NCBI GenBank assembly: GCA_009829735.1
Contig: CM020618.1
Span: 12,243,119-12,307,118 of the forward strand
Length of the DNA stretch: 64,000 nucleotides
Source of the DNA: Pyropia yezoensis
Lineage: Eukaryota > Rhodophyta > Bangiophyceae > Bangiales > Bangiaceae
Direction: 5' to 3'
Below the pieces are notes generated by a model that did not search any database, was not told the origin of the DNA, and was given only the letters and a program-made list of their open reading frames with translations. Shown piece by piece: positions 188 through 50,620 of this stretch (position 1 is its first letter; every line of letters starts with the position of its first letter). The translations under genes were made by a program, and so were the position numbers.

Positions 188-1389
188 GTGTCGGGAGAAC
201 CGGAAGAAGTGCAAGTCGCACACACTCTGTCCCAGTTGTGGGGCAATCCCCCCACTGACAAACAAGAAGATGGTGTGTGGGCTAACAGTTTCTTGGTCGG
301 GACGGGGAAGCGAGGCCAAGCCCCGCTGTCCCTCCCCTTATCCCCCCAGGGTCCCCTCAGAATCTCGCCACTCAGAATCTCCCACCCCAGCACCTGCCCA
401 CCGGGCCACACGAAAATTCAAGACGATAAATGCAGAGAACCCTCAAATCCACGTTGGACTTACTACTAAGCTATCAACCCCAACTTAGAGAATATGGACC
501 CAAATGCAGGGGAAGGAACGGGTCAGGCTAGTGGCCTGCCGCCCCTTGCATGGCACGTGTTGCCCCCCTACCTGGGGGTATATACTGCCACACTCCCCTC
601 TCCTCAGTTCCGACCGACCCGGTCGGCCCTGCGAGGGGGCGTAGAAACGCACATCGCGGCGTTGGGGGCGCGACTTGCTGTCCCCCCGGTACGTCAGGTG
701 GACTTGGAGGCGGTCACGTAGACCGCCCCTCTCCTCAAGCTAGCCCATTTGGCAGCTTGCTCTTATCGGTACTCACCTCACTACCACCAACACATCCTCT
801 TCACCTTACCCTGGGCCGCCCCACGCTGGGGAGGCCACCCATCTACCCGCGATCCGAGCCCCCCTCAACTCGAGGTGGGTCTCGTGCAGCTGCAACCCCT
901 CAAGTTTCCGAGACTCCTCAACTTGAGGAGCGCGTTCGTACTGTTGTGGCGACCGCGAGTTGCGAGTCGGTAGCGGGATTCATGACGACCGAGTTGGCTC
1001 GTATTTGGTCGATTGTGCCCCAGCCGGCCCCACTTGGGCGTGTCAAGCGTCGGGCAAGCCGGGCATACTCGCCTCCTCGCCGTCGTCGCCGTCACTCGCG
1101 GCGATCTCCCTCTGTGTCGGAAGACGAGTTGTCTTATTCCGTTTCGGAGTCCTCTACTCTGTCGGAGACGGAGTCGGTCCGGCGTCTGCGTCGCCAACTT
1201 GCACGCAAGACCAAGCAGAAGAGTAGCCGCAGTCGTCGCCACTTTCGCGACCGTGAGGGGCGCAACGGTTCCGACTTGGAGCCTCCGCCCCCACCGACGG
1301 GTGGGGAACGTTATCGACGTGGGTCTCGCCGCTCGCCTCCACGTGAGGGCGAGGGCCGTGGTGTTGGGGAGTCTAGCATGCGTGCCTAG
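188..1389 (+). pseudogene. Truncated plus-strand gag-like ORF of the chromovirus, unit 1
   Basis: Nearly the same sequence as 5264-5965 plus 7452-7952 of unit 2, with the middle 1.5 kb missing. The last third encodes an arginine/serine-rich tail (PPRRRRRHSRRSP, then RRLRRQLARKTKQK and a GGERYRRGSRRSPP stretch) suited to nucleic-acid binding. The upstream part is open in more than one frame. One frame around 177-300 carries a cysteine pattern C-x2-C-x6-C-x5-C-x2-C-x12-C, like a binuclear zinc cluster, but unit 2 breaks this pattern. I regard this as a deletion derivative and not a working gene. Confidence 0.6.
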
Positions 1390-1500
1390 TTGGCAGCTGC
1401 CCTTGTTGTGAGAATGTATGGGTTAGGGCTGTAGTTAAATGCCACTCTGCGTACCACTTCGACTTGAAGCACTCTCTTGGCACTGTTACCCGGCCTTCCC

Positions 1501-7952: not shown

Positions 7953-8063
7953 TTGGCAGCTGCCTTTGTTGTGAGAGTGTGAGGGTTAGGGCTGTAGTTA
8001 AAAGTCACTCTGCGTACCTCTTCGACTTGAAGCACTCTCTTGGCACTGTTACCCGGCCTTCCC

Positions 8064-10207: not shown

Positions 10208-10209
10208 CG

Positions 10210-30588: not shown

Positions 30589-33500
30589 TCATGCGGTCGA
30601 TCCGCCGGCTGCTACCGGGTCGCCGCTCGCCACCGACCCCCCAGCCACCGACATCGCCGTCCCGTCTGCTCCCGTCCCGACCGAGTCGCTCGCCTCCCCT
30701 GGCTCTTGCCCCCGCCCACGCAGAAAAGCCGCATTGATGCGTTGCGCATGATCGAGGGACACGCCCCCGTAGCTCCGGATCGTAAGCTCCCACCTGCAGC
30801 GCAAACGGTTCTCTGCCATCCTCTCCTTCAGTTCGGCACCCTGAACGCGCTTGTCGCAACGCTTCGGTTGTTGCCACCGAACTGGCATGTCACCATTGTG
30901 GTTCTCCAACCAAGTGATCATGTCCTTAACGACAGGCCATTGCCGCAGATGCAGGGATCGCTCTGCACGACTTGCACGATCCGCCTCCCACTGAAAGCCC
31001 TGGTCCGTGAGCCACTGCTCCTCCGCCGGGTCACCAAGTCCACGCTGAAGCCGCACGTGGTGCAATCGGGTACGGGACGCCCCATGATGTTCAGCGACCC
31101 GCAGGTCCCCGTGTTCCTCCTTGCACGTCTCGAGCGCGGCGCGTTGCTTTCGCCACTCGCGAGTGTCCCTAACAATAGGGACAAGCGGGACAGCCGATAA
31201 CGACGGCGTCTTGTTGTTGAGTGCCGCCATGCCGTGTCCCTCCAGCAACCGGTAGACGGCTCGCTCCACCGCGGCCACCGCCATGCGAATGGGAATGTCC
31301 CCATCCGGGCCCGTGTAGTAGTAGACGATTGTCCGCCAAAAATCTTTTGGGTGTCGTCGATAGTGGATATCAAACGGGGGCGGGGTGTCTTGTGTATCAA
31401 CAGCATCGTAGTGTACGTCGTCCCGGCTGTTGAAGGCACGCTGCACAGTCGTAAATGAAAAAGTATCCAGGCAGCTCCGCTTGCCGACGTAAACCGCTTT
31501 GACGCACGTCTTGCAACGACCCTTGACATAGACGTAGACATAGACAAGCTTTCCTCTGCTCTCCTCCGACCGTACCTTTCTGGCTGCCGGGTCGGTGGCC
31601 ACCGTTTGAGGATGTTGTGCGCCTTCGGCCGCCGCACGCGCGGCCTCTTCCAGAATCGTAGGCATCGCCCTCTTGAGCAGCCGCATCACCTTCCTCCACT
31701 TTCGTTTTTCGGACCGGGTTGCCCCGGGTGGGAAAGCGTGACACCCCGACCGATCCGCCTGGCCGTCGAGTGACACCCAAGGGGCTGTCCGTGGGTCATC
31801 ACCCAAAGTGGCGAGCGCGTCAGATCGCATGGCAGTCGTCCTGGTGCGGAGCGGGACGCGCATCTCCCCGAACACACCGTCGTTCTTGCTGTACCTCGAG
31901 AGGGGCAGGGTCAGTTGTCCACTGCGCCGGGCGCGCACGCAGCCACTTGATGGATTTGGTGGCTGTGCCTTGTCAACGTCCCCCGGGGCGCCACTGCTGC
32001 TCCCGCCGTCGCCGTCGCCACTGTCGTCGTCGTCACTGTCAACGACGCTCCAGTCGACTCCCCGCCGCGGCAAAAGGTCTTCCTCACCCAAGCCTTCCAT
32101 GTAGTCGTCGGCGCCACCAGCAACGACGTCTTCCTCCGCACAGGCAGCACCGCCAACGGGCGCGGAATTTCTCCCTGTCCCTGCTTCCCATACAGCGGGG
32201 GAGACCTCTCGGGAGCCACGCCGGAGTCGTCGCTTGCGAGACCGCCTGACGGGGACGATTTCCTCACCCGACGAGTCTTCAGACATACGAGCCGACGACC
32301 AGCGCGAGGCAGACGTGGTCGGAGACCCCCCCACTGGGCGGGACGACGCGGGCGGTGAGGCGGAGGAGGTAGACGAATCACCAATCAGGATGACGGGGGA
32401 TGCCGGCACAGGGGCAGACGCGGCAGTCACCCGTGTCCCCGCAGTGTGTTCAATCGACGGTCGTCCGGCTCGTGGGCTGGTAGGCGGGTGTCCACCTGCG
32501 GTGGGCTCCACACGCATGACCGTCGTGTTGGCCTCGTGCTCGGCCAGCCATTCATTCATGGCCCGCTCCAGACGCGCTTCTGCCTCCTCGTCCACCCCAC
32601 CACCCTCTTTGTCGTCGTCGGTCGGTGTGGCTGTGGCCAGCGGACGCGCTTCTGCGTCCGCGTCCACCCCAACACCCCCTTTGTCGTCGTCAGGGGTCGG
32701 CGTGGCACTGGCCACGGCGCCGCCAGCCGCCGCACCTCCCCGGCTGCTGCCCCCGGCCGCTGCAAGCACATTGTGCCGTTCGTCACGGCCGCCGCGCCCA
32801 CTGGGGGAGCGCGTGCCTCTGCGCATAGTGCTTGCAGCAGGAGGCCGCACAGTAGGTGGGACACCTTCTGCGGTGCGACGGAAACGAGCCCCGTGGGCGC
32901 CCCTCCCCGCATTCCCCGCTGACCCCACCCAGCCTTGTGCGCCGGGGGGGGCAGCTGGGAACCTGGGTGGAAAGCCATAGTAGACACCCGGGCCAGGGGG
33001 AAGACCGCGTAAATCCGGAGGATAGTGCGGACCCAGGGGAGGGGCGTGGGTCCACGGTTGAAAGCCTTGAGGGGCAACGGGGAAGATCCCTGGCCCAGGA
33101 GGGAAGGCATGCGGCGCCGGCGCATGCGCGCCAGGAAGGACGCCATGCGGACCAAGAGGGAGGGTGTGCGTCCATGGTACGCCACCGTGATCTACTGGGC
33201 CACCGTGACCTACTGGGAAGCCGTACGGACCGCCGGAACCGTGTGGGAAGGCGTGTGGACCGCCGGGACCTTGTGGGAAGCCGTACGGACCGCCGGAACC
33301 ATGTGGGAAGGCGTGTGGACCGCCGGGACCTTGTGGGAAGCCGTACGGACCGCCGGAACCATGTGGGAAGGCGTGTGGACCGCCGGGACCATGTGGGAAG
33401 GCGTGTGGACCGCCGGGACCTTGTGGGCAGGCGTGTGGACCGCCGGGACCTTGTGGGAAGGCGCGCGGCCCCGGCACAACGTTGTAATGACCAGCCGCTG

Positions 33501-33663
33501 GAGAGGCGTGAGGTCCCGGTGTGAAGCCATACCCGCCATGTGGGAGGGCAGGCAGGCCAGTGGACACACCTGAATGACCAGAAGCAGGTAGAGTGTTGGC
33601 ACCGCCAGAGGCACGACGGCTGCGCTTTCGTCCACCCTTCCGCAGTGACGTCGTATGAGGCAT
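30589..33663 (-). CDS. GIY-YIG nuclease-like protein with Gly/Pro decapeptide repeats
   Basis: 1024-aa frame from the first true ATG (the open frame extends 26 codons further to a GTG). Residues about 60-160 are ten-residue repeats of the type GPGGPHAFPH and GSGGPYGFPQ. Residues about 220-600 are Gly/Ser/Asp-rich and probably disordered. Residues about 706-820 resemble a GIY-YIG nuclease: LVYVYVYVKG for the first strand, KAVYVGKRS for the second motif, an Arg in VQRAFNSR, a Glu in AAVERAVYRLLEG and an Asn in MAALNNKTPS, in the family's order and spacing. The C-terminal 150 residues are rich in Trp, Arg and charge (WLTDQGFQW ... WPVVKDMITWLENH), vaguely like helicase-associated repeats. The nuclease assignment rests on motif reading only. 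Its N-terminal part is seen again at 39934-41209 beyond the gap. Confidence 0.65.
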   Translation of the reverse strand: MPHTTSLRKGGRKRSRRASGGANTLPASGHSGVSTGLPALPHGGYGFTPGPHASPAAGHYNVVPGPRAFPQGPGGPHACPQGPGGPHAFPHGPGGPHAFPHGSGGPYGFPQGPGGPHAFPHGSGGPYGFPQGPGGPHAFPHGSGGPYGFPVGHGGPVDHGGVPWTHTLPLGPHGVLPGAHAPAPHAFPPGPGIFPVAPQGFQPWTHAPPLGPHYPPDLRGLPPGPGVYYGFPPRFPAAPPGAQGWVGSAGNAGRGAHGARFRRTAEGVPPTVRPPAASTMRRGTRSPSGRGGRDERHNVLAAAGGSSRGGAAAGGAVASATPTPDDDKGGVGVDADAEARPLATATPTDDDKEGGGVDEEAEARLERAMNEWLAEHEANTTVMRVEPTAGGHPPTSPRAGRPSIEHTAGTRVTAASAPVPASPVILIGDSSTSSASPPASSRPVGGSPTTSASRWSSARMSEDSSGEEIVPVRRSRKRRLRRGSREVSPAVWEAGTGRNSAPVGGAACAEEDVVAGGADDYMEGLGEEDLLPRRGVDWSVVDSDDDDSGDGDGGSSSGAPGDVDKAQPPNPSSGCVRARRSGQLTLPLSRYSKNDGVFGEMRVPLRTRTTAMRSDALATLGDDPRTAPWVSLDGQADRSGCHAFPPGATRSEKRKWRKVMRLLKRAMPTILEEAARAAAEGAQHPQTVATDPAARKVRSEESRGKLVYVYVYVKGRCKTCVKAVYVGKRSCLDTFSFTTVQRAFNSRDDVHYDAVDTQDTPPPFDIHYRRHPKDFWRTIVYYYTGPDGDIPIRMAVAAVERAVYRLLEGHGMAALNNKTPSLSAVPLVPIVRDTREWRKQRAALETCKEEHGDLRVAEHHGASRTRLHHVRLQRGLGDPAEEQWLTDQGFQWEADRASRAERSLHLRQWPVVKDMITWLENHNGDMPVRWQQPKRCDKRVQGAELKERMAENRLRCRWELTIRSYGGVSLDHAQRINAAFLRGRGQEPGEASDSVGTGADGTAMSVAGGSVASGDPVAAGGSTA
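33193..33480. repeat. 30-bp coding tandem repeats (Gly/Pro decapeptides)
   Basis: About nine 30-bp units inside the GIY-YIG-like gene, alternating GGPHAFPH and GGPYGFPQ forms. Repeated at 40742-41030 in the duplicate. Confidence 0.9.
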
Positions 33664-34018
33664 TATGACAGCCACACAGTCCGTCGGTATGTACCGGGGA
33701 TGGCAGGTGTTACACCGCACAACACCTCGCACTGCCGACACAGATAGCGATCACCAGGCGGACAGGGACACACCGCACCTTCTCAGCACTCCAAGTGGGA
33801 CCCAGTCGAGAGCGGGGGGAAAGGCAGACGAGGGGCAACCGGGCTACGCACAGAGCGTCACCGGTTGAAGGCCACCTCTAGCCTGCTTCTCCCAGCGCAC
33901 GCCGGACCGGAGGACAGGCGGAGGAACCGGTGAGTGGCGGGGAGGGGGGGAGGATAAGGGCGGAAGGGGGGGGGGGGGGGGGGGGGTGGTGGAAAAATAG
34001 ACTCCCCCAGGCGGGCAG
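33664..34018. other. Upstream region of the GIY-YIG-like gene
   Basis: No gene. Contains a short copy (about 33800-33865) of the dispersed GGCAGACGAGGGGCAACCGG repeat found at 37.7, 45.3 and 49.5-50.2 kb, then a run of about 20 G at 33967-33986. Confidence 0.6.
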
Positions 34019-34700
34019 GAGCTCACCGCACCGCACGGCACACCACACCACCGAGTCAGAGGGCGACCGCGCCCAGGCGGGCAGAGGCACGCCGCACCAC
34101 ACGCCGCACGACACCACCGAGTCAGGAGCTCACCGCACCGCACGGCACACCACACCACCGAGTCAGAGGGCGACCACGCCCAGGCGGGCAGAGGCACGCC
34201 GCACCACACGCCGCACGACACCACCGAGTCAGGAGCTCACCGCACCGCACGGCACACCACACCACCGAGTCAGAGGGCGACCACGCCCAGGCGGGCAGAG
34301 GCACGCCGCACCACACGCCGCACGACACCACCGAGTCAGGAGCTCACCGCACCGCACGGCACACCACACCACCGAGTCAGAGGGCGACCACGCCCAGGCG
34401 GGCAGAGGCACGCCGCACCACACGCCGCACGACACCACCGAGTCAGGAGCTCACCGCACCGCACGGCACACCACACCACCAAGTCAGAGGGCGACGACGC
34501 CCAGGCGGGAAGGGGCACACCGCACCCCACCACCAAGTCAGAGGGTGACCACGCCCATGCGGGCAGGGGCACACCGCACCACCAAGTCAGAGGGCGACCA
34601 CGCCCATGCGGGCACGGCACACCACACCACCAAGTCAGAGGGGGACCACGCCCAGGGGCACGGCACACCACACCACCAAGTCAGAGGGCGACCACGCCCA
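34019..34700. repeat. 107-bp tandem repeats, four full units plus degenerate tail
   Basis: Unit starts GAGCTCACCGCACCGCAC at 34019, 34126, 34233, 34340 and 34447, each exactly 107 bp apart. Inside each unit CACCACCGAGTCAG occurs twice. Beyond 34447 the units shorten and diverge. Frames through it encode only repeats. Confidence 0.95.
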
Positions 34701-34713
34701 CGCCGGTCCATCC

Positions 34714-35718
34714 ATGGCCAACGGGACCAAGGGTAGCTCATGGGGCGCCTGTGAAGCGCTGAATGTGGGCGGTGAATGGGCCGCCATGCAATGGCTGCGA
34801 AAGCAGGAGATGGTGACGCCAAAGCACGCCCAGGCACCCACGCGGGCAGTTTCGGGACGGCGCACCGCACCCGTTCGCCCGTCCGCCCACCTACGTGCCC
34901 GTCGGCCTGCCTGCCCGCGTACCCGCCCGCCCACCCGCCCACCCTGCCAAGCACCCGCGGGCATCGACCGGCACACGGTACGAATAGGAAAGTACGGGGC
35001 CGGCCGAAACGTGATATGTTACGATATGCATATTGAGTCTGTGAGCACCTTCCAGGTGAGACGTATACAGTAGCGTGGGGGTCGTGGCGAGTCTGTGCAA
35101 ATCCTCGGGCGCCCACAGCCGGGAGATTGTGGTCTGTGAGGTTCGTCCGCGGAGAAATTAACAAGGCTCACGGACAAGGCCCTCGGACAAGCTTTGCTTC
35201 TGCAGTGGAGCCCCGTATGTTACCGTACACCGTCCTGACAGACCGTTCCACAAACCACAACTTTTGGGCCGAAGCGGGCACCGCAACGTGCGATCTGCAC
35301 GCCCATACCCATACGTTATTGCCCGGTCCTGGCCCGTACCCACCAGTTAAGGCCCAGTCCTGCATGCCACATACCCACAAGTTACGGCGCTGTCCTGCCG
35401 CGCTGGGTCGTTCCTTGTCTCGAGACGAGCTCCTGGCGATACCCCCCCCCCCCCCCCCTTCACCCCCCTCTCTCCTCTCACCCCGTGGGTCACCTTCCCC
35501 GTATCATCTCGGAGGTGCCGCGGCCGAATGCGGCACGCGTCTATGTCTATGTAGCACAAGTGTCAGCAAGAGACCTGTGTGGCGGGGGACCAAATCGTTT
35601 GCGCCACACCCGACGTCACCCACGCCGGAAGACGGGCTGCCACAAGTGCAGGGACACTCGCCTCCCGTGTGTAATATGCACGCGCCTGCACCCAGCATCG
35701 CTCTGTCGCGTTTGGTGA
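34714..35718 (+). CDS. Possible two-exon gene with C-terminal cysteine cluster
   Basis: Exon 1 34714-35055 begins at an ATG in context CCATGGCC (MANGTKGSSWGACEALNV) and ends at TTCCAG|GTGAGA, phase 0. A downstream acceptor TCTCGGAG|GTG at 35514 keeps the frame and opens 67 codons that end at TGA 35716-35718. Exon 2 carries CHKC-x6-CVIC-x8-C, a zinc-binding-like arrangement, after a basic stretch NRLRHTRRHPRRK. The intron includes a poly-C/pyrimidine tract whose length differs between the duplicates. The acceptor was chosen by phase and is not well supported otherwise. No family recognised. Confidence 0.3.
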
Positions 35719-35758
35719 TCACATAATACCATGTCCGCCTCTTCGCTTCCGCTGCCGG

Positions 35759-35950
35759 CGGCCTGCTGCTACAATACATACGGTGCCTTTCGCCCCTTGC
35801 AAGGCCCTCCCGTGCATGTGTGGGCCTCGGAGCCCGGGTGGCCTGCTGCTACAATACATACCGTGCCTTTCGCCCCTTGCAAGGCCCCCCCGTGCATGTG
35901 TGGGCCACCGAGCCCGGGTGGCCTGCTGCGATCACGGCGTCGCAGGGTCA
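35759..35950. repeat. 80-bp tandem repeat, two full units plus a partial one
   Basis: GCCTGCTGCT occurs at 35761, 35841 and 35921, spacing 80 bp, with AATACATAC and CTTGCAAGGC landmarks. Same structure at 43309-43480 in the duplicate. Confidence 0.85.
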
Positions 35951-36435
35951 GTCACGTATGAAGCCGCGGCTGTCCCTCTTCCGTCCACGGAACTGTCATG
36001 CGGCACCGGTCGGCAACATGGGACCGACGGATTCTGTGACGGGGCGACCAGCTCACAATTCAGACCACAGGTTAGATCGGGAAATTGGGAGGGGGGGGGG
36101 AGGGGCGAGGGTGGGGAGAGGGTGGGGAGAGGAAAAAGGCACCGACTAGAACCCCTCTGCAGCACCTCCTTTGCTTTGGGGGAGGCCACGCGCCCCCAAA
36201 TACCACAGACGCGAGCAGAGGACGATCTGCCCGGGACTGGCGGCGCAAGGCAACACGACTTCTGCGACTGGCTGGCAGGTCTGGTAGTGACCTGGTAGTG
36301 ACCGCCGGTACACCATCGTACACCACCGCTCACCGCCCGCCCGCCCCCTTTCCACATTGCCCGCATCTCACCCCGCGTCTGCCTACTTTCCCCCCAATCA
36401 ACAAGGAATCCGGCTCGTGTCGTCTTTGGTGTACC
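35951..36435. other. 5' region of the HIRAN gene
   Basis: No gene is assigned. A protein-like reading around 35925-36070 ends at a possible donor CCACAG|GTTAGA, so an upstream exon cannot be excluded. The pyrimidine-rich stretch before 36436 may be the 5' untranslated region. Confidence 0.35.
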
Positions 36436-37009
36436 ATGTCTGGGTCGGGCCAGGGGCTGGTTGATTCCCGCACCGTGACCCTGGTGGGTCGCTACTACTA
36501 TCCCGACAGCTGGAATCTGCGTTTGGTACGCGGTACACCCGTGAAGCTGGTCCGGAATCCAAAGAACAAGGTGGACCCGTGTGCTGTGGAAGTGTACGTC
36601 AACGGTACTATGGTAAGTGGGCAACGCGTTTCACATGGGGTCACAACGCTTGCCTTTTTTTATGTGATGACCACTCTGGGGTACTGACTGCCACGCCAAT
36701 GCACTCCCCATCCTCCTCCCGCCCCCCCTTTATGGTGGCTCGACCGGCTGGCCCGACACCTTTGCCCCGCACGGCGGTCCGACGCTCGTCACCGTGATTG
36801 GCCCTCAATGTGTATTGGAAACTCACTGATTCCCTATTTATCCTGCACAGGTTGGCCATGTGGCTCGGGTATACGCTGGTTGCCTGTCCTCCCTCATGGA
36901 CAACATGCCTCCCGAGGTACACCTGACAGCTGAGCTCGGTGGTGTGTGTGGTGACCGGGGCTGGATGGTGCACCCCGACATGGACATTATTGTGTCGCTG
37001 TGGGGCTAG
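36436..37009 (+). CDS. Stand-alone HIRAN-domain protein, two exons
   Basis: Exon 1 36436-36612 (59 codons) ends ATG|GTAAGT; intron 36613-36850 (238 nt) ends CTGCACAG; exon 2 36851-37009 ends TAG. Phase 0, product 111 aa. The spliced protein matches the HIRAN fold: VTLVGRYYYP, the typical loop VKLVRNPKNKVDPCAVEVY (equivalent to the LVREPxNxxDpnAVxV signature) and, across the splice, NGTM|VGHVARVYAGCLSSLM, the usual VGHxPR-type helix. In HLTF and Rad5 this domain holds 3' ends of single-stranded DNA; stand-alone versions also exist. Here no helicase or nuclease is fused to it. The C-terminal 35 residues are specific to this protein. The splice joins the two halves of the domain, which strongly supports the model. 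Confidence 0.85.
36613..36850 (+). other. Intron within the HIRAN domain
   Basis: GTAAGT donor, CTGCACAG acceptor, 238 nt, phase 0. The HIRAN motif is complete only after its removal. Confidence 0.85.
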
Positions 37010-37679
37010 ATTGACATCGTCTTGGTCCCCTGTAGTGGGCTCGGTCGTACAGGGTGGGTGGTCAACAACCGTAAACCCTTCCTCGGCCGGGTAGCTGGGC
37101 ACACCTTTGCCTCAATTGACGAGGAACTGGGGAGCAGTCAGGAGAACAGACAACAAGGGCCTCACCGCAGCGCCGACCGAGCCGGTGTTGGTCCGCCCCA
37201 CCCAGCTCGGCTTGCAACGCTCCGGCCACAGCCTGATGGCGGCGCGCCGTCCCGGTACCCTCCCCTTCCCCCCTCCCACAGCCACCCACGGGTACACCGC
37301 CGGCTCGGCCGCCACCACACCCACCGACGCCGGCACGGCGGCCGGCACGGCGCCCAACCTGACCGCCGCTGCCACAAACTCCATCGCATCCACCTGCAAA
37401 GCCACCGGCACGGCGGCCTTCACGGCCACCGGCACGGCCGCCTTCACGGCCGCCGTCACGGCCGCCTTCACGGCCGCCGTCACGGCCGCCTTCACCGGCA
37501 CGGCCGCCAAAGACGGCACACCCACCAGTGCGGCCGCCAACGCGGCCGCGGCCGCTTTTCCGGCTCGGCCGCCGACACGGCCGGCGCACCCACCGAAGCG
37601 GCCGCCAACGCAGCCGCTCCTTGGGCCGGCCGCATTTCCGGCACGGCCGCCGAGGCCGGCACACCAGGCGGAGGATCTA
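37010..37679. other. Downstream of HIRAN gene; Ala/Thr-coding simple repeats
   Basis: 37107 onward is open on the plus strand with a low-complexity Ala/Thr/Gly tail produced by CACGGCCGCCTTCACGG-type repeats (37400-37510). Convincing splice links to the HIRAN exons were not found. Treated as non-coding or untranslated repeats. Confidence 0.4.
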
Positions 37680-38240
37680 GGTGGGAGAGGGGGGGAAGGA
37701 GTGGGCAAGAGCGGTGGGCGGGCGGGAAGGGGCAGACGAGGGGCAACCGGTCCCCGCACAGGGCGTCGCCAGTTGAGGGCCACCTCTAGCCTGCCTCTGC
37801 CCACGCACGCACCGCCCTATACCCACCTTCCCACCCTTCCCCACCACCTCCTCAACCCCACGATCTCCTTAACACCCCCCCCCCCCCCCCCCCCCCCACT
37901 CTTCTTACCTTGGCCGGGACGTGGCGACAGGGGCGGGCGCGTGCAAGGCGATGGGGCGGGCACTCTTCATTGTGGCAAAGGGGGTGCGCCTCCACGAGCG
38001 GCGGCGGTGAACAGTGCGGAGGCAGCGGTGAACAGTGCGGAGGCGGCGGCGGTGGCCGCGTTGGCGCCATGGCGGCGGCGGCGGCGAGGGTGCCCGTGTG
38101 AGGCCCTTTCACAGGTCCCACACCTTCACATGTGATGACGGCCCCTTTCACATGTCCCGACGGCACCCACAAAAAAGCTCGGTCGTACATACCGTCACAG
38201 CAGAATATGGAGTACATAATGTTTAGTCGCCATTTCCTGG
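37680..38240. repeat. Dispersed ~560-bp module, copy 1
   Basis: Composed of GGGCAGACGAGGGGCAACCGG, a poly-C tract, CTTACCTTGGCCGGGACGTGG, GCGGTGAACAGTGCGGAGG and a block ending GTACATACCGTCAC ... ATGGAGTACATA. The same series recurs at 45230-45775 (the gap duplicate) and, diverged, at about 50100-50620. Confidence 0.75.
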
Positions 38241-38899
38241 GACGCCGCGCCAGGGCCGCCACCCGCCGGCGGGCTCCCGCAGGGCTCCCACAGGGCTCCC
38301 CCCCCGCACCCCCCCCTTTCACATGCCGCCGTCGCCGCCACAGTCGCCACCCCACGCTGGCTCGCGGGCCACGGCAACGCTGCGGTCGGGGCTCCCGCGG
38401 GCGCGCCCCCCTCCCAAACCTTCTCCCCCCCTGTCGCCACCCCGCTCCGCGTCGCCGACGCGGCGGGGGCGCCGCGCGAGGCTGTCGTCTCCCGACCGGG
38501 CACCGGCCGTCAGGGGGGAGCGGGGCACCGGCGCGCCCGACGCCACAGCGCTCCCACCCGCCTGCCCTGCCGCGCGGTTGCCGGCGGGCCGCCGCGACAG
38601 GCTGGCGGGCGGGCCCTGCCGCGCGGCTGCCGGCGGGCCGCCTCCGCGACAGGCGGGCGGGCCACCCGGCTCAGGGGGGTTGCCGCGGCGGTGGCCGAAA
38701 AGCACCCCCTCCTGTTCCCGCTCCTGTTCCCGCTCCTGTTCTCGCACCAACGCGGGTGGCGGGGCGCTGCCGTTGCCGCGGTCGCAGCGGCGACGCCCGC
38801 CGCCTCCGCCCATACCGTCACGGCACCGCAGCCGGGCAATCTCGGCCGGCGGCGGTGGCTACCGGCCTCCTCTGATCCAATTGAGCGTCAGTAACTGTC

Positions 38900-39302
38900 G
38901 CATGGGCGCATTGCCGCAAGCACGCGCCGGGTCTGGCATCGGATTCAATGGGGTGTTTGCAGTGTTGACGTGGACCATGGGCATTGACCCGCGGTCCCTC
39001 GTTGGGCGTTTGATTCCGACCTCCCACCGACGGGGAGCTAGCTAGGCGCACGCAGGCGGCCTGGCACACGGAAATTTTACAGGCTACACGCGCGGACGTC
39101 ATTGGTGCCCTTTGTCAGATCGCACAAGCCATCGTTGCACCGTCAGTCGGACTGCACCCGTGCCGCTCGCGCGAGTGCGTTGTCCCGTGCGCGACGTGTC
39201 TTTCCCACCAGTTGCGGCCCACCCTTGTGACGAGTATGGCCGTCTGTTTTGTATTACCAGAGACAAATCCGCTCGCGTCTACAGGCCGGTTCGCTCTGTG
39301 AC
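38900..39302 (+). other. Possible coding stretch with a frame break (left copy)
   Basis: See 46448-46844 for the better copy. This version has extra bases (GACCCGCGG, GCGTTTGATT) relative to the right copy, which break the first frame earlier. Confidence 0.25.
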
Positions 39303-39433
39303 GCGGCTAGACGTCATGGCCCCGGTCGACCTGTTTCTCGGGTCGACCACGCGCTCTCACGGGTAGATGCTTCCAGGAGCGCCCCGCCGGCCCCATGCCG
39401 CGCGAGGGTTCTCGCCCAACGTGGGCGACGTGG

Positions 39434-39933
39434 NNNNNNNNNNNNNNNNNNNNNNNNNNNNNNNNNNNNNNNNNNNNNNNNNNNNNNNNNNNNNNNNNNN
39501 NNNNNNNNNNNNNNNNNNNNNNNNNNNNNNNNNNNNNNNNNNNNNNNNNNNNNNNNNNNNNNNNNNNNNNNNNNNNNNNNNNNNNNNNNNNNNNNNNNNN
39601 NNNNNNNNNNNNNNNNNNNNNNNNNNNNNNNNNNNNNNNNNNNNNNNNNNNNNNNNNNNNNNNNNNNNNNNNNNNNNNNNNNNNNNNNNNNNNNNNNNNN
39701 NNNNNNNNNNNNNNNNNNNNNNNNNNNNNNNNNNNNNNNNNNNNNNNNNNNNNNNNNNNNNNNNNNNNNNNNNNNNNNNNNNNNNNNNNNNNNNNNNNNN
39801 NNNNNNNNNNNNNNNNNNNNNNNNNNNNNNNNNNNNNNNNNNNNNNNNNNNNNNNNNNNNNNNNNNNNNNNNNNNNNNNNNNNNNNNNNNNNNNNNNNNN
39901 NNNNNNNNNNNNNNNNNNNNNNNNNNNNNNNNN
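39434..39933. other. Assembly gap, exactly 500 N
   Basis: A run of 500 N, a round placeholder length. It is flanked by the two copies of the 7.05-kb duplication. Confidence 1.
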
Positions 39934-41209
39934 GATGACGGGGGGATGCCGGCACAGGGGCAGACGCGGCAGTCACCCGTGTCCCCGCAGTGTGTTCAAT
40001 CGACGGTCGTCCGGCTCGTGGGCTGGTAGGCGGGTGTCCACCTGCGGTGGGCTCCACACGCATGACCGTCGTGTTGGCCTCGTGCTCGGCCAGCCATTCA
40101 TTCATGGCCCGCTCCAGACGCGCTTCTGCCTCCTCGTCCACCCACCACCCTCTTTGTCGTCGTCGGTCGGTGTGGCTGTGGCCAGCGGACGCGCTTCTGC
40201 GTCCGCGTCCACCCCAACACCCCCTTTGTCGTCGTCAGGGGTCGGCGTGGCACTGGCCACGGCGCCGCCAGCCGCCGCACCTCCCCGGCTGCTGCCCCCC
40301 GGCCGCTGCAAGCACATTGTGCCGTTCGTCACGGCCGCCGCGCCCACTGGGGGAGCGCGTGCCTCTGCGCATAGTGCTTGCAGCAGGAGGCCGCACAGTA
40401 GGTGGGACACCTTCTGCGGTGCGACGGAAACGAGCCCCGTGGGCGCCCCTCCCCGCATTCCCCGCTGACCCCACCCAGCCTTGTGCGCCGGGGGGGCAGC
40501 TGGGAACCTGGGTGGAAAGCCATAGTAGACACCCGGGCCAGGGGGAAGACCGCGTAAATCCGGAGGATAGTGCGGACCCAGGGGAGGGGCGTGGGTCCAC
40601 GGTTGAAAGCCTTGAGGGGCAACGGGGAAGATCCCTGGCCCAGGAGGGAAGGCATGCGGCGCCGGCGCATGCGCGCCAGGAAGGACGCCATGCGGACCAA
40701 GAGGGAGGGTGTGCGTCCATGGTACGCCACCGTGATCTACTGGGCCACCGTGACCTACTGGGAAGCCGTACGGACCGCCGGAACCGTGTGGGAAGGCGTG
40801 TGGACCGCCGGGACCTTGTGGGAAGCCGTACGGACCGCCGGAACCATGTGGGAAGGCGTGTGGACCGCCGGGACCTTGTGGGAAGCCGTACGGACCGCCG
40901 GAACCATGTGGGAAGGCGTGTGGACCGCCGGGACCATGTGGGAAGGCGTGTGGACCGCCGGGACCTTGTGGGCAGGCGTGTGGACCGCCGGGACCTTGTG
41001 GGAAGGCGCGCGGCCCCGGCACAACGTTGTAATGACCAGCCGCTGGAGAGGCGTGAGGTCCCGGTGTGAAGCCATACCCGCCATGTGGGAGGGCAGGCAG
41101 GCCAGTGGACACACCTGAATGACCAGAAGCAGGTAGAGTGTTGGCACCGCCAGAGGGCACGACGGCTGCGCTTTCGTCCACCCTTCCGCAGTGACGTCGT
41201 ATGAGGCAT
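39934..41209 (-). pseudogene. Second partial copy of the GIY-YIG-like gene (N-terminal part)
   Basis: Equivalent to the N-terminal 420 codons of 30589-33663. It is cut by the gap, so the nuclease-like domain is missing. Several homopolymer indels shift the frame: an extra G at about 41155, one C fewer near 40140, one C more near 40300, one G fewer near 40495. Most likely the same locus read with errors. Confidence 0.7.
40742..41030. repeat. Decapeptide-coding repeats, duplicate copy
   Basis: Same 30-bp units as 33193-33480. Confidence 0.9.
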
Positions 41210-41568
41210 TATGACAGCCACACAGTCCGTCGGTATGTACCGGGGATGGCAGGTGTTACACCGCACAACACCTCGCACTGCCGACACAGATAGCGATCAC
41301 CAGGCGGACAGGGACACACCGCACCTTCTCAGCACTCCAAGTGGGACCCAGTCGAGAGCGGGGGGAAAGGCAGACGAGGGGCAACCGGGCTACGCACAGA
41401 GCGTCACCGGTTGAAGGCCACCTCTAGCCTGCTTCTCCCAGCGCACGCCGGACCGGAGGACAGGCGGAGGAACCGGTGAGTGGCGGGGAGGGGGGGAGGA
41501 TAAGGGCGGGGGGGGGGGGGGGGGGGGGGGGGGGGGTGGTGGAAAAATAGACTCCCCCAGGCGGGCAG

Positions 41569-42250
41569 GAGCTCACCGCACCGCACGGCACACCACACCA
41601 CCGAGTCAGAGGGCGACCACGCCCAGGCGGGCAGAGGCACGCCGCACCACACGCCGCACGACACCACCGAGTCAGGAGCTCACCGCACCGCACGGCACAC
41701 CACACCACCGAGTCAGAGGGCGACCACGCCCAGGCGGGCAGAGGCACGCCGCACCACACGCCGCACGACACCACCGAGTCAGGAGCTCACCGCACCGCAC
41801 GGCACACCACACCACCGAGTCAGAGGGCGACCACGCCCAGGCGGGCAGAGGCACGCCGCACCACACGCCGCACGACACCACCGAGTCAGGAGCTCACCGC
41901 ACCGCACGGCACACCACACCACCGAGTCAGAGGGCGACCACGCCCAGGCGGGCAGAGGCACGCCGCACCACACGCCGCACGACACCACCGAGTCAGGAGC
42001 TCACCGCACCGCACGGCACACCACACCACCAAGTCAGAGGGCGACGACGCCCAGGCGGGAAGGGGCACACCGCACCCCACCACCAAGTCAGAGGGTGACC
42101 ACGCCCATGCGGGCAGGGGCACACCGCACCACCAAGTCAGAGGGCGACCACGCCCATGCGGGCACGGCACACCACACCACCAAGTCAGAGGGGGACCACG
42201 CCCAGGGGCACGGCACACCACACCACCAAGTCAGAGGGCGACCACGCCCA
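41569..42250. repeat. 107-bp tandem repeats, duplicate copy
   Basis: Same number and order of units as 34019-34700, which argues for one locus seen twice. Confidence 0.95.
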
Positions 42251-42263
42251 CGCCGGTCCATCC

Positions 42264-43267
42264 ATGGCCAACGGGACCAAGGGTAGCTCATGGGGCGCCT
42301 GTGAAGCGCTGAATGTGGGCGGTGAATGGGCCGCCATGCAATGGCTGCGAAAGCAGGAGATGGTGACGCCAAAGCACGCCCAGGCACCCACGCGGGCAGT
42401 TTCGGGACGGCGCACCGCACCCGTTCGCCCGTCCGCCCACCTACGTGCCCGTCGGCCTGCCTGCCCGCGTACCCGCCCGCCCACCCGCCCACCCTGCCAA
42501 GCACCCGCGGGCATCGACCGGCACACGGTACGAATAGGAAAGTACGGGGCCGGCCGAAACGTGATATGTTACGATATGCATATTGAGTCTGTGAGCACCT
42601 TCCAGGTGAGACGTATACAGTAGCGTGGGGGTCGTGGCGAGTCTGTGCAAATCCTCGGGCGCCCACAGCCGGGAGATTGTGGTCTGTGAGGTTCGTCCGC
42701 GGAGAAATTAACAAGGCTCACGGACAAGGCCCTCGGACAAGCTTTGCTTCTGCAGTGGAGCCCCGTATGTTACCGTACACCGTCCTGACAGACCGTTCCA
42801 CAAACCACAACTTTTGGGCCGAAGCGGGCACCGCAACGTGCGATCTGCACGCCCATACCCATACGTTATTGCCCGGTCCTGGCCCGTACCCACCAGTTAA
42901 GGCCCAGTCCTGCATGCCACATACCCACAAGTTACGGCGCTGTCCTGCCGCGCTGGGTCGTTCCTTGTCTCGAGACGAGCTCCTGGCGATACCCCCCCCC
43001 CCCCCCCTTCACCCCCCTCTCTCCTCTCACCCCGTGGGTCACCTTCCCCGTATCATCTCGGAGGTGCCGCGGCCGAATGCGGCACGCGTCTATGTCTATG
43101 TAGCACAAGTGTCAGCAAGAGACCTGTGTGGCGGGGGACCAAATCGTTTGCGCCACACCCGACGTCACCCACGCCGGAAGACGGGCTGCCACAAGTGCAG
43201 GGACACTCGCCTCCCGTGTGTAATATGCACGCGCCTGCACCCAGCATCGCTCTGTCGCGTTTGGTGA
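42264..43267 (+). CDS. Duplicate of the possible two-exon Cys-cluster gene
   Basis: Exon 1 42264-42605 and exon 2 43064-43267 correspond to 34714-35055 and 35515-35718. Only the intronic poly-C length differs. Confidence 0.3.
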
Positions 43268-43308
43268 TCACATAATACCATGTCCGCCTCTTCGCTTCCG
43301 CTGCCGGC

Positions 43309-43480
43309 GGCCTGCTGCTACAATACATACGGTGCCTTTCGCCCCTTGCAAGGCCCTCCCGTGCATGTGTGGGCCTCGGAGCCCGGGTGGCCTGCTGCTA
43401 CAATACATACCGTGCCTTTCGCCCCTTGCAAGGCCCCCCGTGCATGTGTGGGCCACCGAGCCCGGGTGGCCTGCTGCGAT
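43309..43480. repeat. 80-bp tandem repeat, duplicate copy
   Basis: Same as 35759-35950 with one C fewer in a C run. Confidence 0.85.
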
Positions 43481-43983
43481 CACGGCGTCGCAGGGTCAGT
43501 CACGTATGAAGCCGCGGCTGTCCCTCTTCCGTCCACGGAACTGTCATGCGGCACCGGTCGGCAACATGGGACCGACGGATTCTGTGACGGGGCGACCAGC
43601 TCACAATTCAGACCACAGGTTAGATCGGGAAATTGGGAGGGGGGGGGGAGGGGCGAGGGTGGGGAGAGGGTGGGGAGAGGAAAAAGGCACCGACTAGAAC
43701 CCCTCTGCAGCACCTCCTTTGCTTTGGGGGAGGCCACGCGCCCCCAAATACCACAGACGCGAGCAGAGGACGATCTGCCCGGGACTGGCGGCGCAAGGCA
43801 ACACGACTTCTGCGACTGGCTGGCAGGTCTGGTAGTGACCTGGTAGTGACCGCCGGTACACCATCGTACACCACCGCTCACCGCCCGCCCGCCCCCTTTC
43901 CACATTGCCCGCATCTCACCCCGCGTCTGCCTACTTTCCCCCCAATCAACAAGGAATCCGGCTCGTGTCGTCTTTGGTGTACC

Positions 43984-44557
43984 ATGTCTGGGTCGGGCCA
44001 GGGGCTGGTTGATTCCCGCACCGTGACCCTGGTGGGTCGCTACTACTATCCCGACAGCTGGAATCTGCGTTTGGTACGCGGTACACCCGTGAAGCTGGTC
44101 CGGAATCCAAAGAACAAGGTGGACCCGTGTGCTGTGGAAGTGTACGTCAACGGTACTATGGTAAGTGGGCAACGCGTTTCACATGGGGTCACAACGCTTG
44201 CCTTTTTTTATGTGATGACCACTCTGGGGTACTGACTGCCACGCCAATGCACTCCCCATCCTCCTCCCGCCCCCCCTTTATGGTGGCTCGACCGGCTGGC
44301 CCGACACCTTTGCCCCGCACGGCGGTCCGACGCTCGTCACCGTGATTGGCCCTCAATGTGTATTGGAAACTCACTGATTCCCTATTTATCCTGCACAGGT
44401 TGGCCATGTGGCTCGGGTATACGCTGGTTGCCTGTCCTCCCTCATGGACAACATGCCTCCCGAGGTACACCTGACAGCTGAGCTCGGTGGTGTGTGTGGT
44501 GACCGGGGCTGGATGGTGCACCCCGACATGGACATTATTGTGTCGCTGTGGGGCTAG
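43984..44557 (+). CDS. HIRAN-domain protein, duplicate copy
   Basis: Exon 1 43984-44160, intron 44161-44398 (238 nt, GTAAGT ... CTGCACAG), exon 2 44399-44557. No coding difference from 36436-37009 was seen. Both the exons and the fast-evolving intron are conserved, so this is probably the same gene placed twice by the assembly. Confidence 0.8.
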
Positions 44558-45229
44558 ATTGACATCGTCTTGGTCCCCTGTAGTGGGCTCGGTCGTACAG
44601 GGTGGGTGGTCAACAACCGTAAACCCTTCCTCGGCCGGGTAGCTGGGCACACCTTTGCCTCAATTGACGAGGAACTGGGGAGCAGTCAGGAGAACAGACA
44701 ACAAGGGCCTCACCGCAGCGCCGACCGAGCCGGTGTTGGTCCGCCCCACCCAGCTCGGCTTGCAACGCTCCGGCCACAGCCTGATGGCGGCGCGCCGTCC
44801 CGGTACCCTCCCCTTCCCCCCTCCCACAGCCACCCACGGGTACACCGCCGGCTCGGCCGCCACCACACCCACCGACGCCGGCACGGCGGCCGGCACGGCG
44901 CCCAACCTGACCGCCGCTGCCACAAACTCCATCGCATCCACCTGCAAAGCCACCGGCACGGCGGCCTTCACGGCCACCGGCACGGCCGCCTTCACGGCCG
45001 CCGTCACGGCCGCCTTCACGGCCGCCGTCACGGCCGCCTTCACCGGCACGGCCGCCAAAGACGGCACACCCACCAGTGCGGCCGCCAACGCGGCCGCGGC
45101 CGCTTTTCCGGCTCGGCCGCCGACACGGCCGGCGCACCCACCGAAGCGGCCGCCAACGCAGCCGCTCCTTGGGCCGGCCGCATTTCCGGCACGGCCGCCG
45201 AGGCCGGCACACCAGGCGGAGGATCTAGG

Positions 45230-45775
45230 TGGGAGAGGGGGGGAAGGAGTGGGCAAGAGCGGTGGGCGGGCGGGAAGGGGCAGACGAGGGGCAACCGGTC
45301 CCCGCACAGGGCGTCGCCAGTTGAGGGCCACCTCTAGCCTGCCTCTGCCCACGCACGCACCGCCCTATACCCACCTTCCCACCCTTCCCCACCACCTCCT
45401 CAACCCCACGATCTCCTTAACACCCCCCCCCCCCCCCCCCCACTCTTCTTACCTTGGCCGGGACGTGGCGACAGGGGCGGGCGCGTGCAAGGCGATGGGG
45501 CGGGCACTCTTCATTGTGGCAAAGGGGGTGCGCCTCCACGAGCGGCGGCGGTGAACAGTGCGGAGGCAGCGGTGAACAGTGCGGAGGCGGCGGCGGTGGC
45601 CGCGTTGGCGCCATGGCGGCGGCGGCGGCGAGGGTGCCCGTGTGAGGCCCTTTCACAGGTCCCACACCTTCACATGTGATGACGGCCCCTTTCACATGTC
45701 CCGACGGCACCCACAAAAAAGCTCGGTCGTACATACCGTCACAGCAGAATATGGAGTACATAATGTTTAGTCGCC
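45230..45775. repeat. Dispersed ~560-bp module, copy 2 (duplicate of copy 1)
   Basis: Same as 37680-38240 apart from the poly-C length near 45422. Confidence 0.75.
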
Positions 45776-46447
45776 ATTTCCTGGGACGCCGCGCCAGGGC
45801 CGCCACCCGCCGGCGGGCTCCCGCAGGGCTCCCACAGGGCTCCCCCCCCGCACCCCCCCCCTTTCACATGCCGCCGTCGCCGCCACAGTCGCCACCCCAC
45901 GCTGGCTCGCGGGCCACGGCAACGCTGCGGTCGGGGCTCCCGCGGGCGCGCCCCCCTCCCAAACCTTCTCCCCCCCCTGTCGCCACCCCGCTCCGCGTCG
46001 CCGACGCGGCGGGGGCGCCGCGCGAGGCTGTCGTCTCCCGACCGGGCACCGGCCGTCAGGGGGAGCGGGGCACCGGCGCGCCCGACGCCACAGCGCTCCC
46101 ACCCGCCTGCCCTGCCGCGCGGTTGCCGGCGGGCCGCCGCGACAGGCTGGCGGGCGGGCCCTGCCGCGCGGCTGCCGGCGGGCCGCCTCCGCGACAGGCG
46201 GGCGGGCCACCCGGCTCAGGGGGGGTTGCCGCGGCGGTGGCCGAAAAGCACCCCCTCCTGTTCCCGCTCCTGTTCCCGCTCCTGTTCTCGCACCAACGCG
46301 GGTGGCGGGGCGCTGCCGTTGCCGCGGTCGCAGCGGCGACGCCCGCCGCCTCCGCCCATACCGTCACGGCACCGCAGCCGGGCAATCTCGGCCGGCGGCG
46401 GTGGCTACCGGCCTCCTCTGATCCAATTGAGCGTCAGTAACTGTCGC

Positions 46448-46844
46448 ATGGGCGCATTGCCGCAAGCACGCGCCGGGTCTGGCATCGGATTCAATGGGGT
46501 GTTTGCAGTGTTGACGTGGACCATGGGCATTGACCGCGGTCCCTCGTTGGGCGTTGATTCCGACCTCCCACCGACGGGGAGCTAGCTAGGCGCACGCAGG
46601 CGGCCTGGCACACGGAAATTTTACAGGCTACACGCGCGGACGTCATTGGTGCCCTTTGTCAGATCGCACAAGCCATCGTTGCACCGTCAGTCGGACTGCA
46701 CCCGTGCCGCTCGCGCGAGTGCGTTGTCCCGTGCGCGACGTGTCTTTCCCACCAGTTGCGGCCCACCCTTGTGACGAGTATGGCCGTCTGTTTTGTATTA
46801 CCAGAGACAAATCCGCTCGCGTCTACAGGCCGGTTCGCTCTGTG
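46448..46844 (+). CDS. Possible unrecognised protein, read in two frames
   Basis: First frame from ATG 46448: MGALPQARAGSGIGFNGVF, then VLTWTMGIDRGPSLGVDSDL, ending TAG at about 46583. Second frame, overlapping from about 46569 to TGA near 46844: ELARRTQAAWHTEILQATRA, then DVIGALCQIAQAIVAP and a Cys-rich stretch HPCRSRECVVPCATC. The two read naturally in series if one base is missing in ACGGGGAGC near 46575-46582. That is inference: a splice at GCACGCAG is another option. No family recognised. Confidence 0.3.
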
Positions 46845-47373
46845 ACGCGGCTAGACGTCATGGCCCCCGGTCGACCTGTTTCTCGGGTCGACCACGCGCT
46901 CTCACGGGTAGATGCTTCCAGGAGCGCCCCGCCGGCCCCATGCCGCGCGAGGGTTCTCGCCCAACGTGGGCGACGTGGCTGCCCGTCGCGCCCGCAAGTG
47001 GCGATGGATGTGCTTGACGGGAAATGCGGGCGGGGGGCCGGCCCTGGCCGGTGTACCACAGTGCCAAAAGAACTAGTCCAACGACGCCCGCGTTTTTCGG
47101 TCGCGGGTCACACGAACGATGCGGGCGGTGAGCGCTCCGACTCGCCTCCACGAGTCTGCCCACCCCCCGGCGGCGCCCTGCTATAATAGCTCGCAACGGG
47201 TGGGTGCTGGAACACCTGCTCTCAAGTGCCCCCCGCAAGGCGCTGCGTGGCAGCGCCGCCGCAGTTCACACGCCCCCGCCCCCGCCCCCGCCCCTGCCCC
47301 TGCCCCCGCCCCCGCCCCCTGCCCCTGCCCCCGCCCCTGCCCCCGCCCCCGCCCCCACCCCCAACACCACAGC
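46845..47373. other. No supported gene; (CCCCGC)n repeat
   Basis: Unique sequence resumes at 46979. A hexanucleotide-like run of CCCCGC and CCCTGC units spans about 47268-47355. Confidence 0.5.
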
Positions 47374-47901
47374 ATGTATGAGGTCTGCTGCAGCGGCGGT
47401 GTGGGTGGTGGTGCTGGCGGTCAAGCCCCGCACGTTCCAGAACTGACATGCCGGGTATGGCCGCCGCCAGAGGAGCCGCCGGCCCTGCTGTCACCGCCCC
47501 CGTCACCGCAGCCACCTCCTGAACTCTTGTGTTGCCTGGCGACCGCGGGGCCGTTGACCGTCCCAGGAGAGCGCCCGTCGCCCGCGTCGCCCGCGTCGCC
47601 CGCGTCGCCCCCGTCGCCCCCGTCGCCCCTGTCGCCACCCCTTACCGGCCTTTCGCCGGTGGTTAGACGGTCCCGGGTGGCAAGGCTCTCAAGACTGCCT
47701 CTACGACCTACGACACCGCCCTTGCCGTGTGCGTTGCCTCTTGTGCCTCTCGCACCACCGCCGTCTCCTGTTGGGCCGCTACCGACATCGCCCCTGCCGA
47801 TGGGGTCGCAAGAGTACCCGCCCGGGTGGTTCGACTATGACACCACACACGGACTTGGTCGTCTGTACCTGCTGTCCGGCCGCCGCAGCCCCACCCCCTG
47901 A
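47374..47901 (+). CDS. Proline-rich small protein (uncertain)
   Basis: 175-codon frame from ATG 47374, just after the CCCCGC repeat. The N-terminus MYEVCCSGGVGGGAGGQAP is followed by a Pro/Ser-rich core with nine-base repeats coding SPA and SPP (about 47577-47635), and an aromatic C-terminal patch EYPPGWFDYDTTHGLGRLY. That patch looks less compositional than the rest and is the main reason to list it. No family recognised. Confidence 0.3.
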   Translation: MYEVCCSGGVGGGAGGQAPHVPELTCRVWPPPEEPPALLSPPPSPQPPPELLCCLATAGPLTVPGERPSPASPASPASPPSPPSPLSPPLTGLSPVVRRSRVARLSRLPLRPTTPPLPCALPLVPLAPPPSPVGPLPTSPLPMGSQEYPPGWFDYDTTHGLGRLYLLSGRRSPTP

Positions 47902-48069
47902 AAGCTCGACCAGGATGGGACGGGGAGAAGCGTGCGGGGTGAGTGTGGGGGGAGCCGCCTTGGACCGGGCACGCCTCGGTGATAGTAGTTTTTCCGAGGG
48001 CCGCAAAAGGTAGAGCGAGAGTCACTCGTGTGTGGCAGGCGGGCATTGGTGGGGGGGGAGTGAGTGTGT

Positions 48070-48922: not shown

Positions 48923-49310
48923 CTAGGGCACGAGGACGACCAGGTAGCTCGAGGATGAACTCGTCGGCCCCGTCCGTGATCTCTGACCGCGGCCTGTACT
49001 TGCGCGTTTGGGACGGCAGGAGCCTGCCCGCTGGTGAGGTTGAGCACGGCCCCCCTCACTGTGGGTGTCGGCGATGTGCCCCAGCAGGCGCACCTGCGTG
49101 GGCCCCTCATTGACGCCCTTCGTAGGGTGCATCTCGAGGCCCAGCTCGCCAATGAGCCGCTCCGCGTTGCGGTAAGCGGCCGTGGCCGGTGCCTTGGTGG
49201 CCGGTCGACCCAGCAAGGCGGGCGGCGCGCCGTCAAGTCGTTCACGTAGGCGATGATGCAACAGCCCTGCTCGCACCCGCAGGCAGTACACGACGGGGCG
49301 CATCTCCTTC
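48923..49310 (-). pseudogene. Reverse-transcriptase fragment, frameshifted
   Basis: One frame gives QGCCIIAYVNDLTARRPP, where YVND stands for the YxDD box. The next frame gives AYRNAERLIGELGLEMHPTK followed by GPTQVRLLGHIADT, the palm-to-thumb segment of retroelement RTs. The P-TQ-xx-LG-xx-xDT form resembles DIRS-like and related elements more than the chromovirus pol in this window. Replacement of the first catalytic Asp by Asn and the frame changes mean it is dead. Confidence 0.65.
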
Positions 49311-49407: not shown

Positions 49408-50360
49408 AGGGCGGGGGGGGGGGGGGGGAGGGGGGGGGAAGGAGTGGGCAAGCGCGGTGGGCGGGTGGGAAGGGGCAGACGAGGGGCAACCGGGCTACGC
49501 ACAGGGCGTCACCGGCGAAACGCCCGCGCGCTCGTCCGCCCCTCCCCACACACACACCGCCCTGTACCCACCTTCCCACCCTCCCCCGCCACCTCCTCAC
49601 CCCCCTCCCCCCCCCGCCCCCCCCCACTCTTCGTACCTTGGCCGGGATGTGGCAACAGGGGGCGGGCGCGTGCACGACCAAGGCGGGTGGCAGGCTTTAT
49701 CGGCCGGGGAAAGGGTGGGGGACGGGGTGGGGAAGAGAGACAAAGAAGCCCGGTGGGGGAGGGGGGGAAGGGTGGGCAAGCGCGGTGGGCGGGTGGGAAG
49801 GGGCAGACGAGGGGCAACCGGGCTACGCACAAGGCGTCACCGGCGAAACGCCCGCGCGCTCGTCCGCCCCTCCCCACACACACACCGCTCTGTACCCACC
49901 TTCCCACCCTCCCCCACCACCTCCTCACCCCCCCCCCCCCCCCGCCCCCCCCCACTCTTCTTACCTTGGCCGGGATGTGGCAACAGGGGGCGGGCGCGTG
50001 CACGACCAAGGCGGGTGGCAGGCTTTATCGGCCGGGGAAAGGGTGGGGGACGGGGTGGGGAAGAAAGGCAAAGAAGCCCGGTGGGGGAAGGGAGGAAGGG
50101 TGGGCAAGCGCGGTGGGCGGGTGGGAAGGGGCAGACGAGGGGCAACCGGGCTACGCACAAGGCGTCACCGGCGAAACGCCCGCGCGCTCGTCCGCCCCTC
50201 CCCACACACACACCGCTCTGTACCCACCTTCCCACCCTCCCCCACCACCTCCTCACCCCCCCCCCCCCCCCCCCCCCCCCCCTCTTCTTACCTTGACCGG
50301 GATGTGGCAACAGGGGGCGGGCGCGTGCACGACCAAGGCGGGTGGCGGGCTTTATCGGCC
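49380..50360. repeat. Three tandem copies of a 328-bp repeat
   Basis: The landmark GAGGGGCAAC lies at 49481, 49809 and 50137, spacing exactly 328 bp. Each unit has GGGCTACGCACA, GGCGAAACGCCCGCGCG, CACACACACACCGC, a long poly-C, CTTACCTTGGCCGGGATGTG and GGCTTTATCGGCCGGGGAAA. It is preceded by a G-rich run at 49376-49432. Related to the module at 37680-38240. Confidence 0.9.
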
Positions 50361-50620
50361 GGGGAAAGCGGGTGCGCTGCCACCAGCGGCGGCGGTGAAC
50401 AGTGCGGAGGCGACGGCGGAGGCCGCTTTGGCGGCGGCGGCAACGAGAGTGTCCGTGAGAAGTTCTTTCACAAGTCACACATCGTACATGTGACGACGGC
50501 CCCTTTCCCATGGCACACGCCGTCACATGTGACGACGGCACCTACAAAAACAGCTCAGCCGTACATACCGTCACGACAGAAAATGGAGTACATATTGTTT
50601 AGGCGATATTTCCCGATAAC
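50361..50620. repeat. Diverged copy of the 37990-38240 block
   Basis: Shares GCGGCGGTGAACAGTGCGG, CACATGTGACGACGGCCCCT-like elements, CCGTACATACCGTCAC and AATGGAGTACATA with 37990-38240. It contains two copies of ACATGTGACGACGGC. Confidence 0.8.

Follow-up and report, generated by a model that had tools for sequence, protein, structure and literature searches.

The assembled genome of the nori alga Pyropia yezoensis carries, in a 64-kb stretch at C1:12243119-12307118 (hereafter the window), two direct copies of a 7,045-bp sequence on either side of a run of 500 N. Each copy holds a tandem array of 107-bp units and a small gene with a HIRAN domain, and both belong to a large dispersed repeat family. 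Judged from the sequence, the pair is very probably a homotype false duplication, in which two overlapping contig ends were set end to end. According to the available text of its description (PMC7423979), the assembly was built with PacBio RSII reads, HGAP3, SSPACE, PBJelly2, Quiver, BioNano and Hi-C, homozygous thalli supplied the DNA, repeats are called over 48% of the genome, and the three scaffolds represent the three chromosomes of haploid P. yezoensis. The terms homotype and heterotype are used here as by the Vertebrate Genomes Project, in the portions available of its reports (PMC8081667, PMC9516828); there, homotype false duplications are described as often lying at contig boundaries and being about as long as a read (PMC8081667), and a gap between copies is listed as one mark of false duplication, read depth being the other (PMC9516828). 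The features of the duplicated stretch are as follows.

32389..39433, + strand: left copy, 3' end of the left contig (self-BLAST and difference listing)
39434..39933, no strand: 500-N placeholder gap, the sole N run in the window
39934..46978, + strand: right copy, most likely redundant, forming the 5' end of the right contig (self-BLAST and error polarity)
34016..34530, + strand: 107-bp tandem array of the left copy, 4.8 units
41566..42080, + strand: 107-bp tandem array of the right copy, 4.8 units
36436..37009, + strand: HIRAN gene of the left copy (Pfam), 111 amino acids, with exon 1 at 36436-36612, intron at 36613-36850 and exon 2 at 36851-37009
43984..44557, + strand: HIRAN gene of the right copy, letter-identical to the left one (the segment 36432-37009 recurs at 43980)

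Self-BLAST aligned the two copies, each of 7,045 bp, directly and end to end with 99.646% identity over 7,056 columns (bit score 12,872). The last base of the left copy abuts the N run and the first base of the right copy directly follows it. An aligned listing resolved the differences into 17 clusters, of which 14 are single-base changes of homopolymer length, one is a 4-base change within a long C run, one lies in a poly-G tract and also turns AA into GG, and one is a plain substitution (34069 G / 41619 A). The first-pass annotation, made from the letters alone, had reported this layout, and its coordinates proved exact; its further statements that the copies are bounded by the first and last N, that they differ almost only in single homopolymer bases, that the number of 107-bp units is the same, and that the HIRAN intron is the same in both all hold. 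A length of 7,045 bp is plausible for an RSII read.

Paralogous copies of the repeat elsewhere in the genome made it possible to ask which of the two copies departs from the family at each difference. Copies A, B, C, E1, E2 and F, each covering part or all of the stretch, served as outgroup, and clusters were assigned by eye from the alignment. It is the right copy that departs at eight clusters (offsets 6, 207, 361, 556, 1221, 1576, 3070 and 3497, the assignment at 3070 being weaker as the paralogues vary there), all eight within its first 3.5 kb. The left copy is odd at six (offsets 1681, 6125, 6285, 6600, 6621 and 6931), and five of these lie within its last 0.95 kb (6125-6931). The remaining three of the 17 clusters (5487, 5920 and 6036) received no assignment; at 5920 and 6036 C sides with the left copy, A and F with the right one. 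This polarity gave p=0.0013 in a one-sided exact Mann-Whitney test, and again 0.0013 when offsets 1681 and 3070 were left out. Neither flank of the overlap has a private indel in the window: the left one (2,585 columns, compared with A, B and C) carries one private substitution, the right one (1,045 columns, compared with C and F) three. As the errors cluster at each contig's own end while the flanks lack private indels, the differences are best read as consensus errors at contig ends. The pair thus resembles known homotype false duplications in lying at a contig boundary, in meeting at both edges of an assembly gap, here the 500 N, and in differing by consensus errors rather than variants, a distinction judged here through paralogues instead of reads; only 34069/41619 could be a plain variant among the 17 differing sites. 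It differs from them in lying inside a multi-copy repeat. The same procedure offers a read-free test for false duplication, with paralogous repeat copies as outgroup and the question whether private errors sit at a copy's own contig end.

The two copies are also closer to each other than to any of six fetched copies of the family. Over 7,034 columns they mismatch four times, twice in the poly-G tract, once beside a C run and once by the plain substitution, against 9-53 mismatches with the fetched copies, and other copy pairs differ by 16-102 substitutions per 10 kb. At five gap-free columns the left and right copies share a state missing from A, B and C, and at 14 columns, where only A and C were compared, a state missing from both. 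The corresponding stretch of copy C is 7,148 bp long, about one 107-bp unit longer, whereas the two window copies have the same unit count.

The repeat family extends well beyond the duplicated stretch. In searches of 107.5 Mb of genome, in 11 pieces, a 3.6-kb probe gave at least 97 matches; six, the two window copies among them, cover its full length at 96% or more. A 1-kb probe over the left edge (31889-32888) is matched over its full length at nine other places (99% or more), and over all or nearly all of it at more sites with 79-92%. A probe over the right edge (46478-47477), for which 40 of 83 candidates were scored, occurs whole at 99% or more at two places at least (C1:1.033 Mb and C1:1.274 Mb) and whole at 86-90% at six or more others, and at least two partial matches also cross the edge. 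On direct comparison, A, B, C, E1 and E2 continue unbroken across the left edge, and C and F do so across the right. Copy C (C1:1.024-1.035 Mb), where the repeat spans at least 11 kb, passes from one flank to the other through a single copy free of N. Because the left-edge probe runs through at other loci, the left edge is no biological boundary. Repeat copies reach N runs elsewhere too, B at a point corresponding to window position 37423, C at 48016, D at 36093 and F at 35736. The earlier argument that a real duplication would not begin and end at gap edges therefore survives only in part: the edges are where they were said to be, but as proof of falseness they are weaker than stated and insufficient alone, since contigs ending inside two real dispersed-repeat copies with overlapping phases would give identical edges.

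What the family does offer is a view of the layout expected at a single locus. Both junction probes lie on one strand, in order and within 30 kb of each other, at eight loci, the window included. This pairing used 24 of 33 left-probe rows (those starting at probe base 1 or 2) and 9 of 55 right-probe rows (those starting at base 1 and crossing the edge). Right-probe rows that start at base 1 and stop before or at the edge, namely the left copy itself and copy A, were excluded, as were two partial edge-crossing rows, C2:26530003 (97%) and C3:9033468 (90%), neither of which has a left-probe row nearby on its strand. At five loci the probes are 7,050-7,488 bp apart, one copy being 7,045 bp. At two others the spacing is 16,094 and 18,342 bp, and since each of these holds a single HIRAN exon-1 match, the extra length is read as insertions. 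The window has a spacing of 14,589 bp and is the only paired locus with two HIRAN genes; its pair is also the sole case of HIRAN exon-1 matches less than 20 kb apart among 22 genome-wide. No second locus with two whole stretches was found among the loci detected by junction probes and HIRAN exon-1 matches.

The polarity of the errors, the private alleles in common and the single-copy layout at paralogous loci together point to a false duplication, and they make two overlapping contig ends, one of the causes the first-pass annotation had named, the best explanation. Most likely the true locus holds the stretch once, the duplication is no real feature and the second copy is not real DNA. Two neighbouring PacBio contigs would have entered one and the same copy of a large dispersed repeat, whose copies are nearly identical, and overlapped by 7,045 bp; the assembler would have left them unmerged, presumably owing to repeat ambiguity and poor consensus at the contig ends, and the scaffolder would then have placed them next to each other and inserted a fixed 500-N gap. 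The 500 N would represent no measured length: five of the seven complete gaps seen, the window gap among them, have exactly 500 N, although N runs counted as gaps may include stretches masked as N. One nori chromosome would accordingly lose about 7.5 kb, with a spurious HIRAN copy and a spurious array of 107-bp units, the excess of 7,045 + 500 bp agreeing with the earlier estimate for the window, and any tally of copies of this family close to gaps should be checked.

Several observations weigh against an artefact, and some of them would fit a genuine duplication of very recent origin, tandem or close and direct, whose unit is larger, at least 7 kb with the HIRAN gene; the contigs would then end inside the copies, with the remainder of the unit hidden in the unsized gap. 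Bounds at the gap edges are expected under this explanation as well, and the only join between the window copies is an N gap, which could hide sequence. Polarity marks the differences as errors but does not alone make the copies one, as a true unresolved tandem would also give poor consensus on both sides, and the left-copy substitution at 34069 (offset 1681) lies 5.4 kb from the contig end, outside the error pattern and unexplained. Unmerged overlap is no general habit of this assembly either, given that no overlap across the gap was found at any of six other gaps with both flanks (up to 15 kb per side, plus strand, shortest piece 1.8 kb). The family itself contains a real tandem, E1/E2, a gap-free direct pair of partial repeat copies at C1:19934817-19945840. 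Its members lie 10,028 bp apart, both end at window position 35468, and no gap occurs within the fetched stretch. Two open reading frame matches lie about 10 kb apart at C1:31.51-31.52 Mb; this locus and that of E1/E2 each carry neighbouring copies of the left part that lack HIRAN. The E1/E2 pair shares its repeat family and direct orientation with the window pair but differs in its lack of a gap, its 10,028-bp period and its divergence, with seven substitutions in 2,979 columns (23.5 per 10 kb). At that rate 16.5 substitutions would be expected between the window copies, where one is plain (P(<=1) 1.2e-6; P(<=4) 2.7e-4). In a 5,991-bp BLAST piece of E1/E2, partly the same sequence, mismatches number only six, or about 10 per 10 kb, which shows how similar a young tandem can be; at this rate 7.0 substitutions would be expected, with P(<=1) 0.007, but if all four mismatches are real, P(<=4) is 0.17 and a count that low is not unusual. 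On the sequence comparison, a tandem of the age of the closest part of E1/E2 is thus disfavoured, though less so if all four mismatches are counted as real. Together with the equal array counts, set against the extra unit in copy C, and with the uniqueness, among the loci detected, of the window's two whole stretches and HIRAN pair, this leaves an extremely recent tandem improbable in our view.

Two further arrangements would give a similar picture. Two haplotypes of one locus placed in series, a heterotype false duplication and the other cause proposed earlier, would presumably produce the same direct repeat around a gap. It differs from what is seen here on two counts: the source DNA came from homozygous thalli, as the available text of PMC7423979 has it, and the differences are homopolymer lengths at contig ends that look like consensus errors, not scattered, allele-like substitutions. 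We consider it very unlikely. A scaffolding error that joined contigs from two different loci, each ending in a different repeat copy, draws some credit from the nine other places that match the whole left-edge probe at 99% or more and from the bit score of the next genome copy, which is near that of the right copy (6,406 vs 6,438). Against it stand the closeness of the left and right copies relative to all six fetched copies and the private alleles they share, and it is the least credible of the explanations, with hardly any weight. The overlap of two contig ends from one locus remains the preferred reading. A literature search by title found no newer nanopore or telomere-level nori assembly.

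The gene in the duplicated stretch has features of its own. Its splice, chosen by eye, is one of eight in-frame GT-AG joins; the Pfam HIRAN match has E 4e-13 for the spliced protein and 2.2e-05 for the unspliced exon-1 frame. The 22 genome-wide exon-1 matches comprise 20 close ones, window copies included, and two distant ones. All 22 exon-1 matches and 20 of the 22 exon-2 matches are free of stops, while the DNA of the copies has diverged down to about 70%. Stop-free frames in diverged copies suggest that the dispersed repeat keeps a small, one-intron, stand-alone HIRAN protein, and the HIRAN-bearing repeat is possibly a mobile element. Literature searches for HIRAN together with GIY-YIG, transposon or alga found no title or abstract opening on this family. 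The family has more than one left edge, with three repeat copies each starting at about 29100, 29491 and 30043 in window coordinates (within a few bases on a second comparison), which reflects either truncations or nested elements.

An open frame on the opposite strand crosses the left edge of the stretch:

30589..33750, - strand: 1,053-codon open frame across the left repeat edge (open-frame listing)
40235..41296, - strand: the same frame in the right copy, ending after 353 codons, short of the gap

That the frame is whole in the left copy and broken in the right agrees with contig-end errors in the right copy. Only its N-terminal end (32389-33750) is duplicated. A loose six-frame pattern scan found the sole GIY-YIG-like motif between 26 and 52 kb at 31483-31542, left of the repeated stretch, and the GIY-YIG-like 332-aa C-terminal region has one match at this locus and 44 genome-wide, fragments and distant ones included. 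The proposal that gene counts here be halved therefore applies to HIRAN, present twice in identical letters, and fails for the GIY-YIG-like part, which lies outside the stretch and is present once. Relatives of the C-terminal region conserve VYVYV ... AVY.G.R ... E ... N, a pattern that we take to recall GIY-YIG nucleases and that no library confirmed. For the 336-aa C-terminal part, Pfam gave nothing at E up to 10 (most weak matches being removed by HMMER's filters); the nine weak phmmer matches in PDB are all complement C3 chains, with a best E of 0.029, and are taken as chance; and the AlphaFold model has a mean predicted local distance difference test (pLDDT) score of 40.4. The GIY-YIG identity of this part is a candidate motif, its domain not confirmed by Pfam, phmmer or AlphaFold.

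The rest of the window holds other repetitive elements. Pfam was run on 40 open frames chosen from three listings of 52, 35 and 33; HIRAN appeared once, a single frame matched both RNase H and integrase, and a GT87 match stayed below threshold. The RNase H and integrase zinc-binding matches lie at 2456-3781 on the minus strand, and self-BLAST found a direct repeat at 892-3643 and 7455-10209 (94%); these two repeats are probably long terminal repeat (LTR) retrotransposons. A 328-bp tandem repeat occupies 49432-50368 (2.9 units, 97%). The short blocks 46613-46732 and 49024-49147 recur at several loci as a pair spaced by about 2.2 kb, no window match being listed between them, and might be the ends of a non-autonomous transposon family.

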